Position numbers and translations under genes: made by a program. Of a stretch of DNA of 64,000 bases, positions 59,931-64,000 are shown one piece after another (positions within the stretch are counted from its first letter, which is position 1; the number at the start of each line of letters is the position of its first letter). Below the pieces are notes generated by a model. It was not told where the DNA came from and ran no database searches. It was given only the letters and a program-made list of their open reading frames with translations. This stretch comes from Rhodopseudomonas palustris (GTDB lineage: Bacteria; Pseudomonadota; Alphaproteobacteria; Rhizobiales; Xanthobacteraceae). The stretch covers positions 62,001 through 126,000 of the forward strand of contig NZ_QYYD01000005.1 of NCBI RefSeq assembly GCF_003591005.1. The letters run 5' to 3'.

Positions 59931-60020
59931 GGAAGGGTGGCCGAGTGGTTTAAGGCACCGGTCTTGAAAACCGGCGTGCCCGCAAGGGTACCGTGGGTTC
60001 GAATCCCACCCCTTCCGCCA
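59931..60020 (+). tRNA. tRNA-Ser (anticodon UGA)
   Basis: Full cloverleaf of 90 nt including CCA: acceptor GGAAGGG / CCCTTCC, discriminator G, D-arm TGGCCGAGTGGTTTAAGGC, anticodon stem CCGGT/ACCGG with TGA at 59965-59967, long variable arm (TGCCCGCAAGGGTA), T-loop GGTTCGAATCC. The sequence character changes immediately downstream, so the 3' end is a likely integration site. Confidence 0.97.
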
Positions 60021-60112
60021 TAAACCGTTGATTGTATTTTGCAAAATCTGTTGACGGGCGAAACGCAATTTTACAACCATACGGCGAAAGTGCCTTTCAA
60101 CCTGCAACAATG

Positions 60113-60136
60113 CTGCAACAGTTTTTTCTGTTGCAG
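60113..60136. repeat. Perfect 9-bp inverted repeat with T6 loop
   Basis: CTGCAACAG-TTTTTT-CTGTTGCAG, less than 100 bases after the tRNA. A TGCAACA word also occurs just upstream (60103-60109). It could be a terminator-like hairpin or recombinase arm site. Confidence 0.6.
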
Positions 60137-60771
60137 ACGGCCCCTCGGCGCCGACTTCGCCGGAACCGAGCGGCACCCCGGAATCGCAGGCCGCCGGCTC
60201 CAATCGCAACGTCCGTGAATTTCTCTTGGCGCCACCCTAATACCGCTGCCGACTCGAGGATCTGCCAATTGAGTTGAGCAACGGAGCGCTGGCTATTTCC
60301 GAACTTGTCCCTTCCCACTCCTGGAGGACTTTTCGAACCGGCGACCGCCCCGGAGCCGCCATCCGCTATTCACGGGGCACCATGCAATGCCGTCCACTCA
60401 TCTGCGGCGGGAACGACCACGTCCTTCATCCTCGTCGTGGAGTGCGAGAGCGCGTTACACACCCGGCACCCGATATTGAAACGCCACTATCGTCGCCGCC
60501 CGTGCAGATAGCTTGAAGGGTGTCCTCACCCTGGACAACCTCGAAGGAGTTCGAGCTTTGGTCCAACGGCACCACTTCGAAAGCACCGAAACAAGGTGCT
60601 GGTCCCCGGTTGCGGCGCGACTGAAGACGGTCCCGAACTGGACCTGTAATCCCGACCTTCCTGGCGGGAGGTTCGGTTACACCAGGCCGTCCTCCGCCGA
60701 GCCAGCGCTCTCGGGATGAAGCAGTTTCAGGCGCGGCCGAACCGGCTAAGCCAGCCCCCGACGACAGGCCC

Positions 60772-60807
60772 TGTCACTGGATGTTTGAGCACATCCATCC
60801 AGTGACA
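60772..60807. repeat. Perfect 12-bp inverted repeat with 12-base spacer
   Basis: TGTCACTGGATG at 60772-60783 and its complement at 60796-60807. Geometry fits an operator or recombination site; no flanking gene explains it. Confidence 0.6.
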
Positions 60808-60965
60808 AAACGGAAACTGCTATACCGGACGCTTCCTTGCAAGACGGCAACCGTGCAAGGCAAACTCAACGGCACCGGCCGCCTTCGCGGAACGCACAGC
60901 CTGACATCAAACTCAACGAATAAATTGCTTCCCGCTGAATGCACGTGGCAGGCAACTCCAAAACA

Positions 60966-60996
60966 GTTGCGGATTTCTGATTCCAGAATCCGCAAC
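60966..60996. repeat. Hairpin GTTGCGGATT...AATCCGCAAC
   Basis: A 31-base hairpin: about 13 paired bases with one bulged T and a 4-base loop. No T-tract follows, so it is not a typical terminator. Confidence 0.55.
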
Positions 60997-61195
60997 AGAC
61001 GATTCAACTTTCGAAATCTACGTTGCAGAACTCCTTGAAGGCGATTCGTATCTCGAAATTTCTGATTCAAACTTCGAAAACGGCGTTACATCATCAAACG
61101 ACGACGTGAGATTTTTCGTAACTAACTACGCGACGCCGGGCATAGCAAGTCTGCAACGACCGCAATTCGTCGTTCTTAAGAGGGGCAGTCTCTGA
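60992..61195 (+). pseudogene. Possible decayed hexapeptide-repeat fragment 1
   Basis: An open frame with no start codon that reads DDSTFEIYVAELLEGDSYLE and continues ISDSNFENGVTSSND before losing any pattern, ending at a stop at 61193-61195. The EISDS and (D)STFEI words recur in the fragment at 63461-63622. The style (short beta-strand-like units with DS/GN turns) recalls left-handed beta-helix repeats. This is weak evidence. Confidence 0.3.
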
Positions 61196-61392
61196 TTGAA
61201 CCCCGCCCTTCTCCATCAAATCCGATCCAAGGACGTCATATCCGCTGCCTGGAAAGTCAAAACAGTCGCCCGCAACCGAATTACAGTTGCGATAAACTGA
61301 TTCAGTACCCCAGATTTCCGTTTCAATCTTCATGAACGGCGATTCGAAACTCTACAATCTGATTCAATCGCCTCGTTCGCGTTGTAGTGAAG

Positions 61393-61643
61393 GATGACGC
61401 ACAGGTTTACAGAGGTTCCTATCGAATGCCCTCATCGCTCGCCGGCAAGGTATTTTCGGAGAAGTCTACGGCTTTTCGCGCGACAATGGAAACGCGACCG
61501 TGATCGGTCAAGTTTTCGAAAACTCACTGGTTGATGATGATGCCACGGTTGTTGAGCAAGTAATATCCGCCTCGCGGATGGCCGACGAGGCGGATTTTGC
61601 AGGGAAATCAGAAGATAGGAATAATGCCACCTACGTTGCATGA
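61393..61643 (+). pseudogene. Possible decayed hexapeptide-repeat fragment 2
   Basis: One frame reads VKDDAQVYRGSY up to about 61423. A second frame then reads GEVYGFSRDNGNATVIGQVF and ENSLVDDDATVVEQ before a stop at 61641-61643. The x-A-x-V-x-G/D-x-A spacing is typical of left-handed beta-helix proteins, and a frame change joins the two parts. The 3' end runs into the hairpin and peptide gene on the other strand. Confidence 0.4.
61565..61595. terminator. Hairpin beyond the small peptide gene
   Basis: Perfect 10-bp stem (ATCCGCCTCG / complement) with an 11-base loop, 13 bases beyond the peptide gene's stop codon on the minus strand. The T-run (TTTT) is on the plus strand; the minus-strand tail ATTAC is weak, so it may stabilise the mRNA end rather than terminate strictly. 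Confidence 0.5.
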
Positions 61644-61808
61644 CGCAGCCGGAGTGGGACCACCCGCGGGACGCGCCTGCTGATGCAGCTGACCTTTCGG
61701 CGAGTTTGCATAAAGCTCCGCCAAATAATCTGCCGATTCTTCCTCGATGCCACGATCAACTAGAATTCTTTTGGCCCTTTCCTTAACTTGTTCACTCGTC
61801 TCTGCCAT
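61608..61808 (-). CDS. Putative radical SAM-modified RiPP precursor peptide
   Basis: Peptide of 66 residues. A near-perfect ribosome site, AGGAGGAGA, ends 4 bases before the ATG. Residues 1-40 are charged and helical (MAETSEQVKERAKRILVDRG, then IEEESADYLAELYANSPKGQ) as in leader peptides. The end changes character abruptly: ARPAGG, then PTPAASCNVGGIIPIF. That tail is Pro/Gly/Ile-rich, has one Cys, and follows a GG that could be a cleavage site. The gene overlaps the end of the radical SAM maturase gene by 17 bases. Precursor identity is inferred from size, layout and context; I do not recognise the family. Confidence 0.65.
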   Translation of the reverse strand: MAETSEQVKERAKRILVDRGIEEESADYLAELYANSPKGQLHQQARPAGGPTPAASCNVGGIIPIF

Positions 61809-63174
61809 GCCTCTCTCCTCCTGCCTGAGTCAACCTTCTCGGGTTCGTTAAAATACTACTTTCAATTACGGTCTTCCTTATACATCGGTCTCCATGCTGA
61901 CTGCCGAACGGGATAACGCGGCAGCCACCCATGCATATTGGAAGCACATTACACGACCGGCATAGGTCAGCTTTGAATGGAGAATATTCAAGCCATTCAG
62001 CGGCCTTAGGAAATAGATCAAGCTGGCCGCCATGCACGATCCTGCCGCAATCACTTGTGCGGTCGTGGAATTTGTCCGTGCACTTTGTGAGCCTTCCGCC
62101 AGGAAGGATAATCCAATTATGGTCTGGAATTGCGCCACAGTACAAAGCGCCCGGGGTGATTGCTTGCTTGTCTTCCAAACACCAAAAACCCGCTTCCTTC
62201 AGCATACCCCTTATTTGATGATACAAAGGAACGTAGTCGGCGTTCTCTAAGGACTGCTGCTTCGTATAAAAGTCATTCGGTATTGCTTGATGCACATTGA
62301 CTGCAATTCTTGAAGCCGCTGGCCTGAGGTCGTCGATAAATCCAGTCCAAAGGTCAATCATCTTAGCCATGCGCGGGGTGACGTTCACCCGAAGCGTCAC
62401 AAAACGTTCGTGCTCGTGAAAAACGTCGAGGAGATTGTAGAGCCCCCGCAAGATGGCGTCGTATGTTCCTCTGCCTGAGACGTTAAATCTCTGCTGATCA
62501 TGGAATTCCTTCGGCCCGTCGATTGTTATCTGAACTCGACTTAACCTCGATGTTTTTAGCTTACTACAATTCGGCTTACTTAGCAGCACGCCGTTCGTCG
62601 ACGTATAAGAATCATATGTGATATTTGCCTCATCCAGCAAAGGCACTATTCGCGCAGACATCCGCTCGATCGCATCAATTTTCAGTAGCGGCTCACCTCC
62701 CCACCACGAAAGGCTAAATTTTGAAAGGCGCTCAGATGAACTTTGACTTTTGCCAATCTCATTGCGAATGAACGCGACTATGTTGTCTTCGTCGCCCGGA
62801 CTAATATTTTCGTCTACATGATCTTGATAACAATATTCACAGCGAAGGTTGCATTGCAACGTAGTAACTATCGCCAGACTCGCAAAATTGGCGCCGGTCT
62901 TTTGCTGCCAATACCGCTTTTCCAAAATGCTAATTTCGTCGATGTTCTCCTCAACAAGAAATCGACGGTCGATTAGGAGAGAGCGAATTTCAGCCTCAAA
63001 CGCCGAAGTAGGTTCCGCGTTTGGTTCATTCAAGAACTTGTAGATTATCGCGCTATCCGCAGGACCGGCCTCTAAGAGGGACCGGTTGATGAGGTTCTGG
63101 TAAATCCAGGCACCTTCTGCTCTATCTAGAGCTGAATGAACATATCGACTGCGTTTGAACAGCTGATTTGTCAC
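61792..63174 (-). CDS. Radical SAM/SPASM peptide maturase
   Basis: Protein of 460 residues. The radical SAM cluster motif is CNLRCEYCYQ (about residue 107), with the glycine-rich SWWGGEPLL. The N-terminal 90 residues (SRYVHSALDRAEGAWIYQNL and on) are typical of SPASM peptide maturases and may bind the leader. The C-terminal SPASM domain has Cys in ALYCG, TKCTDKFHDRTSDCG and LCRSCNVLPICMGGCR, enough for two auxiliary clusters. I choose GTG at 63174 because GGGGGTGAT precedes it; TTG at 63207 is in frame. GC is far below the chromosome average (many ATT, AAT, AGA codons), indicating horizontal acquisition. Confidence 0.85.
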   Translation of the reverse strand: MTNQLFKRSRYVHSALDRAEGAWIYQNLINRSLLEAGPADSAIIYKFLNEPNAEPTSAFEAEIRSLLIDRRFLVEENIDEISILEKRYWQQKTGANFASLAIVTTLQCNLRCEYCYQDHVDENISPGDEDNIVAFIRNEIGKSQSSSERLSKFSLSWWGGEPLLKIDAIERMSARIVPLLDEANITYDSYTSTNGVLLSKPNCSKLKTSRLSRVQITIDGPKEFHDQQRFNVSGRGTYDAILRGLYNLLDVFHEHERFVTLRVNVTPRMAKMIDLWTGFIDDLRPAASRIAVNVHQAIPNDFYTKQQSLENADYVPLYHQIRGMLKEAGFWCLEDKQAITPGALYCGAIPDHNWIILPGGRLTKCTDKFHDRTSDCGRIVHGGQLDLFPKAAEWLEYSPFKADLCRSCNVLPICMGGCRVIPFGSQHGDRCIRKTVIESSILTNPRRLTQAGGERHGRDE

Positions 63175-63876
63175 AAGATCACCCCCGGCAACTCGGGACT
63201 CTATCAAGTCCGAGTCAATATCTTCGTGGAGCGAAACTACAGTAATAAAACCTCAAAACCAGGATGCAGTCAAGTTGTAGTTGGCGCGCCCCTCTCGCAT
63301 GCGGCGACACGCCTCGCGCATCGGGGAACCATGTGCTGGAGGAGGCAGGCGTTCCTCATCCAAATCGCCAACGCTAACTTGAATACCCGATACGGGCCGC
63401 GGTGCTGATTCAGTTCAACGGGCGCGAAGTAGATTCGCCACGACCTCCGTCTTGTGCCTTTCAACTTGACGTTGTCGGCAACCTGGAAAGCGCCGCAAGT
63501 ACGTCACTTGCAGCTTTCGACAACGCAAATGCAGTTGCGCAATTATGATTCAAAGTTCGAAATTTCTGATTCAGCGCTCGATACTTTTGATTCAAGAACT
63601 GACGTTGTTAGAATTCGGCAATAACAATCCGAAGTAACGGCCCACCGCGGCGCTCCGCCCTGAGGCCGCTCTCGCGCCCTCCATCCTCGTCACATTGTGA
63701 GCAACGTTACTACTCGATTGCCGTCGCTCTCAGAAAGTGATCATGTTGGGTGAAATAGGATCAGTTCACCGGCGAAATTTGTCACTTGCAACGCCCTGCG
63801 CCAGACTGGAAAGGCTGGAAAGTGTGCCCGCGAAGGCGGCAGCGCTACCGGCACGACAGACCGAGAGGAGGCCAAC
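63175..63876. other. Gene-poor segment upstream of the maturase
   Basis: About 700 bases with no convincing intact gene; it must contain the maturase promoter on the minus strand. It also holds hexapeptide-repeat-like fragment 3 and a purine-rich stretch leading to the last gene's ribosome site. Confidence 0.5.
63461..63622 (+). pseudogene. Possible decayed hexapeptide-repeat fragment 3
   Basis: Reads VVGNLESAASTSLAAFDNAN and AVAQ in one frame, then YDSKFEISDSALDTFDSRTD in another, ending with a stop. It shares the 17-base word TCGAAATTTCTGATTCA (63557-63573) with 61053-61069 in fragment 1, each encoding EISDS. There is no start codon or ribosome site. Confidence 0.35.
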
Positions 63877-64000
63877 ATGGGAAAATCGAATACTAGGCGT
63901 CGCGATCATCAGGCAGAATATCAGAGAGCATACCGGCAGCAGCAGAAAGTATCCCGCAAGCCTTCACGAGACGATGTCGCGCGCTTGGCGCTCTATCTTA
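63877..64000 (+). CDS. Small basic hypothetical protein, partial
   Basis: N-terminal 41 residues of a gene running off the right edge. An excellent ribosome site (GAGAGGAGG) precedes the ATG by 6 bases. MGKSNTRRRDHQAEYQRAYR is followed by QQQKVSRKPSRDDVARLALYL: a strongly basic helical region and then a segment like a small helix-turn-helix start. I do not recognise the family; short proteins of this kind occur in mobile regions of Rhizobiales. Confidence 0.6.
   Translation, partial: MGKSNTRRRDHQAEYQRAYRQQQKVSRKPSRDDVARLALYL

Follow-up and report, generated by a model that had tools for sequence, protein, structure and literature searches.

It was found that a 66-codon gene overlaps the 3′ end of a radical SAM/SPASM maturase gene on a low-GC island of Rhodopseudomonas palustris. 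Anatomy, structure prediction, and small-ORF statistics support the reading of the two genes as a leader-dependent RiPP pair. All positions in Table 1 refer to the window, that is, the whole stretch of 64,000 nucleotides that was analyzed. With a probability of roughly 0.45, the pair is a two-gene leader-dependent RiPP cassette of a divergent thioether lineage, in which the single core residue Cys57 is bonded as one thioether. The translational overlap and the strong ribosome site speak for a cassette, while a thioether is suggested by the CteB-like fold, by the profile matches to maturases of Cys peptides, and by the central position of the lone Cys in the core. I infer the substrate-enzyme relation, the thioether, and the cleavage site alike.

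Table 1. Positions of the gene pair, its parts, and the island end in the window
Feature	Position	Strand	Basis
Radical SAM/SPASM peptide maturase, 460 aa, GTG start	61792..63174	minus	sequence, profile searches, AF2 model, alignment
Putative precursor peptide gene, 66 codons	61608..61808	minus	sequence, ribosome site, ORF statistics, AF2 model
AGGAGG ribosome site of the putative precursor, within the 3′ end of the maturase gene	61817..61822	minus	sequence and resampling
Putative leader, residues 1-50, two predicted helices, GG at the end	61659..61808	minus	sequence; AF2 helices
Putative core, residues 51-66, PTPAASCNVGGIIPIF, sole Cys at residue 57	61611..61658	minus	sequence; GG boundary inferred
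tRNA-Ser(tga), left attachment site of the island	59931..60020	plus	3′ part repeated to the right, outside the window
Low-GC island, left end, carries the pair and extends beyond the window	60021..64000		GC, repeat, flank comparison

Both genes lie on the minus strand where the first-pass annotation had put them, and the 17-base overlap that it described is exact, the maturase stop being at 61792 and the peptide start at 61808. The GTG start of the maturase at 63174 has GGGGGTGA ahead of it; an alternative longer start, TTG at 63207, lacks a ribosome site like GGGGGTGA. For the small gene, AGGAGG stands 8 nt ahead of the ATG, which bears out the near-ideal ribosome site seen at first pass. When the 4-kb region was resampled 2,000 times with a Markov model, an ATG-initiated ORF of at least 60 codons with AGGAGG 4-10 nt upstream turned up at a rate of 0.02 per 4 kb, both strands counted, against the one observed; the full 64-kb window has four AGGAGG-led ORFs of this kind, the putative precursor gene included. 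The codon score of the small ORF is unremarkable: among the 135 island ORFs of 55-110 aa in any frame, 27 do equally well. Codon usage lends the small gene no support and is no argument against it either.

The maturase starts with a predicted RRE-like winged helix (residues ~5-95), and a radical SAM core with C108-C112-C115 follows, Radical_SAM being found by Pfam. The CX3CX2C motif is seen as CNLRCEYC, and the SPASM cysteines (346, 365, 405, 408, 414, 418, and 431) form the pattern CX18C-X39-CX2CX5CX3CX12C. The CNLRCEYCYQ motif and the Cys-rich SPASM domain of the earlier description are both there, the latter with seven Cys residues. In an alignment of 48 rows (the window enzyme and 47 related frames, out of 70 that passed the filter and 60 that were listed), the ten cluster Cys residues are invariant in all 48, the first three having already been required by the pattern that fetched the rows. 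With CX3CX2C and the seven-Cys SPASM domain, the enzyme fits the broad kind of radical SAM/SPASM RiPP maturase.

An AF2 model made from the 48 rows (pLDDT 87.9) has an N-terminus in RRE order, then the barrel, then SPASM. The modelled N-terminus has strands at residues 12-17, 22-27, and 32-36 and then helices at 38-49, 58-69, and 80-93. Since this order fits the three strands and three helices given for the RRE in excerpts of PMC6231123, the domain is called RRE-like, with a putative role in peptide binding. Foldseek placed CteB first (5why/5wgg, E 1.9e-18), then TigE (8vpo), then anSME, and CteB was also the top match of phmmer against the PDB (E 8e-12). In NCBIfam, 68 families matched the maturase at E<=1, and the best 25 of the 68 are all below their cut-offs. 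TIGR04463 (205.5 bits against a curated cut-off of 525, which keeps the enzyme out of that equivalog), CefB, FlmE/OhkG, and Clo7bot stand at the top of these 25, with PapB also among them. Because the nearest models thus include thioether or Cys-rich maturases (TIGR04463, CefB, Clo7bot, PapB), they were counted for the thioether. A literature search on TIGR04463 returned no mention of it, and one on OhkG returned kynurenine papers only. Viperin (pVip, 36 bits) was ruled out by the SPASM Cys residues and the RRE-like domain, neither of which viperin is known to have.

The full peptide of 66 residues is MAETSEQVKERAKRILVDRGIEEESADYLAELYANSPKGQLHQQARPAGG-PTPAASCNVGGIIPIF. AF2, run on this sequence alone (mean pLDDT 69.7), predicts helices at residues 5-18 and 23-35 and disorder in the remainder, and GG precedes the one-Cys core; the helical leader followed by GG that had been read from the letters is consistent with this model. 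The putative core has one Cys, neither Asp nor Glu, and an NVGGIIPIF stretch with an aliphatic tail. Membership in a known non-RiPP family, an objection foreseen by the first-pass annotation, was not found in NCBIfam, Pfam, or PHROGs. The single NCBIfam match is to an unrelated enzyme (E 0.009, 15 of 316 bits), Pfam gave two matches only (E 0.18 and 0.29), and PHROGs gave none. Leader families are absent from the peptide's NCBIfam matches at E<=1, so that the peptide is not a Nif11-leader precursor by this library, which does detect the Nif11 leader in the precursor of a related locus (L028). The mismatch to SCIFF and mycofactocin precursors claimed earlier also stood: the peptide has one Cys and matches no NCBIfam precursor family, MftA-type included, and the maturase reaches 54.1 of the 425 bits of the SCIFF model TIGR03974. 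The peptide occurs once in the host genome, and no match was found in the plasmids, phages, and viral contigs searched. Two weak matches in 213 family genomes (E 0.003 and 0.008) were rejected as chance because, judged by eye, they are other frames or the antisense of ordinary genes. The best phmmer match of the peptide in all frames of the related loci had an E of 1.6. In the literature, GGIIPIF turned up in four antibody and vaccine papers, none on RiPPs as far as the listed entries tell.

The favored thioether cassette would work as follows. The N-terminal RRE-like domain would bind the leader through its two helices (residues 5-35). The radical SAM cluster would then generate the 5′-deoxyadenosyl radical, which would take a hydrogen from a core residue, and the two SPASM clusters would help Cys57 bond that residue in one thioether of the sactionine or ranthi type. 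A protease encoded elsewhere than beside the pair would remove the leader, with the cut at GG or close to it. No transporter or peptidase was recognized beside the pair. GG-type PCAT export via a C39 peptidase was rejected as a candidate, because the two C39-domain proteins of the host genome both seem, by eye, to lack the catalytic Cys.

As for the bond itself, the non-alpha acceptors named in excerpts of PMC8326336 are Asn, Thr, and Asp; NxxcA has a single thioether from Cys23 to Asn20, a spacing of 3, and CteA has a spacing of 2. In the window core, the possible acceptors Thr52 and Asn58 lie 5 and 1 residues from Cys57, matching neither spacing. Cys57 may instead be joined to the alpha carbon of an aliphatic residue close by. 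CteB has a Cys-binding site on Aux I according to the text excerpted from PMC6231123, and the C346-C365 loop of the window maturase has no additional Cys, which leaves room for such a site; an open, CteB-like Cys-binding site is thus possible. The loop Cys is likewise absent in 43 of the 48 rows, and kin with Cys-free candidate precursors (L023, L027, L034, and L039) are among the 43, which weakens the Aux I site as an argument for a thioether. The linker residue C332 is exclusive to the window enzyme (1 of 48 rows) and, by analogy, could close Aux I like the linker Cys of SuiB. Counted against the thioether are C332 and the undiscriminating Aux I loop, the acceptor spacings and the core without Asp or Glu, the Cys-free candidate precursors beside related enzymes, the single known copy, the unremarkable codon score, the want of a recognized transporter or peptidase beside the pair, and the C39 proteins seemingly without the catalytic Cys.

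The relatives of the maturase are distant. Among 16 genomes of the genus, there were three matches at E<=1e-20, namely the window enzyme and two at 30% identity (loci L003 and L004 in genomes G013 and G011), which are adjoined by Cys-rich ORFs that have no NCBIfam match at E<=1e-5. At E<=1e-45, the maturase matched only itself in 149 family, 397 order, 385 class, and 398 phylum genomes, and at E<=1e-44 only itself in 391 family genomes; the draws of 149-398 genomes overlap, and the result concerns matches at the cut-off or better. Plasmids gave 36 matching records, all below 60% identity, with 24-27% among the 20 of them that were listed. With the alignment as the query, viral contigs gave 12 distant loci (best segments 23-34%), while the single maturase as the query found no match there. 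A scan of genome contigs with a generic motif gave at least 592 stretches, and the best segments in the best 80 of 505 were 22-32% identical. In a tree of 52 rows (the 48 alignment rows and four more), no branch is longer than that of the window enzyme (2.36), which has a top identity of 28% and no supported neighbor. A second copy of the pair was not found in the genomes, plasmids, phages, and viral contigs searched. Homologous maturases without such a peptide, which had been named beforehand as a point against the pair, do exist as far as distant relatives are concerned (about 30% identity or less over the protein); different precursors are expected at such a distance.

Candidate precursors were surveyed at 24 related loci on the strand of the maturase with a ribosome-site filter, and at three loci also without the filter; they are candidates by position and, mostly, by a ribosome site. 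They are very varied: some are Cys-rich, some are Cys-free, and some have a one-Cys tail. In an uncultured Thermoleophilia (L028), a one-Cys core EVPGTGDDPGACTWPVYAPI stands behind a Nif11 leader (58.1 bits against a cut-off of 32.3), and the candidate at L033, which matches no family, has the one-Cys tail HINIACFA. Thus, the layout of one Cys in a core with a hydrophobic end is not unique. Related maturases of Kurthia, Parageobacillus, and Paenibacillus are trailed by Cys-free peptides of 27-28 residues with strong ribosome sites (L023 7213-7299, L027 7216-7302, L034 7247-7333, and L039 7397-7480). These peptides have a common end, SGR or TGR and then KxVPGNL, where VPGNL comes with K, N, or S, and they look like a precursor family whose maturase makes no use of Cys. 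Related maturase frames also occur in series, three in a row in an Acetobacteraceae MAG (L035 4444-8728) and seven in a Methanosaeta MAG (L021 1839-11197). On a Methylovirgula plasmid, an annotated CbpA/CbpB precursor-maturase pair lies 2 kb from a radical SAM relative (L006 7351-8930).

The main rival to the thioether is aliphatic C-C chemistry, in which Val59 of NVGG or an Ile would become a cyclopropane-type or otherwise C-C bonded residue, as with TvgB, and Cys57 would be structural or a cluster ligand. I regard this as unlikely but worth serious attention. TigE is the second protein in the Foldseek list, and the substrate of TigE is a repeat peptide containing Ile. Cys-free candidate precursors adjoin four of the related maturases, and the NVGGIIPIF of the core resembles the substrate motif TVGG of TvgB in the excerpted text of PMC9062424. 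That motif is repeated many times in TvgA, as opposed to the one NVGG here, so that the peptide falls outside the cyclopropylglycine pattern of repeated TVGG described there, and by sequence CteB is nearer than TigE (47.8 against 26.4 bits in phmmer).

It is rather improbable that the small gene encodes no substrate and that the target of the maturase is some other peptide or protein, with the 66-residue protein being unrelated or accessory. SPASM enzymes that act on proteins do exist, such as anSME with sulfatases and QhpD with QHNDH (PMC8326336, in excerpt). Only one copy of the pair was found, so that co-conservation gives no support to the relation, and the codon usage of the small ORF (27/135) adds none. 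The overlap, the ribosome site, and the leader-core layout are nevertheless those expected for a precursor, none of the family matches of the small protein is convincing, and such an ORF is expected by chance only 0.02 times per 4 kb.

A C-terminal change as in mycofactocin, by oxidative decarboxylation or cross-linking of the final Ile-Phe, is very unlikely. The mycofactocin precursor ends in a beta-branched and an aromatic residue and has one Cys, and the window peptide shares these traits; it does not have the terminal Tyr, its enzyme has an RRE-like domain of its own (predicted) where mycofactocin uses a separate MftB, and no mycofactocin maturase model is among the best 25 of the 68 NCBIfam matches.

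The pair is the cargo of an island, as indicated by the tRNA repeat, the drop in GC, and an island-free site in a related genome. The 3′ part of tRNA-Ser(tga) is imperfectly repeated about 30.7 kb away (contig C55 152685-152760; 76 bp, 7 mismatches, 90.8%), and the two bound an island of about 31 kb (30.7 kb). The GC content is 0.66-0.72 to the left of the tRNA, and 0.58 and then about 0.50 to its right. Of the other 15 genomes of the genus, one (G007) has the right flank 0.7 kb from the tRNA on the same contig, which represents the site without the island; the left flank beyond the tRNA is located elsewhere there. To the right of the pair, the island encodes an AAA ATPase as well as the BREX proteins BrxF, BrxC, and a methyltransferase of the PglX type (L099 6737-17744), and its further genes include a tyrosine integrase, HipA, and a B12-binding radical SAM protein. 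The last lies near the far island end (L101 9223-10560), is below the cut-off in all 25 NCBIfam families that it matches at E<=1e-5, and is accompanied by two ORFs with no match in the families searched. GATTCA-led direct repeats of about 21 nt (GATTCAAANTTCGAAATTTCT) were found at 61001-61090, 61299-61367, and 63547-63609, flanking the RiPP pair on both sides in a single orientation. GATTCA occurs 12.7 times per kb in the repeat stretches, which were picked after seeing them, 0.46 times in the island, and 0.05 times in the rest of the contig examined; the repeats may be regulatory sites or a degenerate repeat. That the pair is a decaying or inactive passenger with no working product would suit its one known copy, the mobile island, the sparse surroundings, and the want of a recognized export or protease gene beside it, and is hardly to be expected with open frames, cluster Cys residues all kept, and an intact ribosome site. 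A role in microbial conflict fits a mobile island with defense genes, which does not prove it.

How new is the pair? The enzyme type is already known, the window maturase is very divergent, and the peptide matches no known precursor. From the first-pass annotation, which had proposed a candidate new RiPP system, the RiPP pair is thus supported by its anatomy, the model, and the ORF statistics. A new family would be compatible with the absent family matches and the distant relatives, yet it rests on one copy and is unproven, and a new class cannot be claimed because there is one sequence only. I would consider it doubtful, if conceivable, that a separate RiPP class has in this pair its first known member, with a one-Cys, Ile-rich, acid-free core, its own maturase lineage, an uncharacterized bond (either aliphatic C-C or a thioether whose acceptor is an unactivated aliphatic carbon), and a place as BREX-island cargo. 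SPASM maturases are a main source of new peptide chemistry. According to excerpts of PMC9062424, the superfamily comprises more than 250 clusters, 118 of which, with more than three sequences, were analyzed, and 22 unreported pathways were named. A maturase lineage with distant relatives only, among the genomes examined, suggests that much of the superfamily is unsampled. A one-Cys core that lacks acidic residues and has an aliphatic tail leaves few reactions possible, and a single mass-spectrometry experiment can separate them. The site beside BREX genes on a tRNA island raises the question of microbial conflict or island maintenance.

Among known systems, the CteB/SCIFF-ranthipeptide family (TIGR03974) shares the predicted order of RRE, radical SAM, and SPASM and provides the nearest solved structure by both Foldseek and phmmer. 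In contrast, CteB is 16-17% identical to the window maturase, which lies far below the family cut-off, and SCIFF substrates have six Cys residues (PMC8326336, excerpt) against one in the window peptide. The maturases of TIGR04463 (rSAM_vs_C_rich), CefB, and Clo7bot are among the best NCBIfam matches, with alignments over most of the protein, whereas their partners are, by name, Cys-rich or Cys-repeat peptides; at one locus (H2), CefA lies beside a TIGR04463 maturase. NxxcA/NxxcB resembles the proposed product in having one thioether, of the non-alpha-carbon type (PMC8326336, as excerpted). Compared by description, the Asn acceptor of NxxcA is three residues upstream, while the only Asn of the window core comes directly after the Cys. 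In the excerpts of PMC9062424, TvgB belongs to the radical SAM maturases, a group with up to three clusters, and Val of TvgA becomes cyclopropylglycine. TvgA/TvgB and the window pair have in common a core Val with Gly-Gly behind it, a likeness of motif; they differ in repeats against a single motif and in the oxidase and transporter genes, which were not recognized at the window pair. Finally, the Nif11 precursor of the Thermoleophilia locus L028 has a maturase 24% identical to that of the window and shows GG followed by a core, EVPGTGDDPGACTWPVYAPI, that has one Cys and is hydrophobic at its end, but its Nif11 leader carries a second Cys, whereas the window leader matches no leader family.
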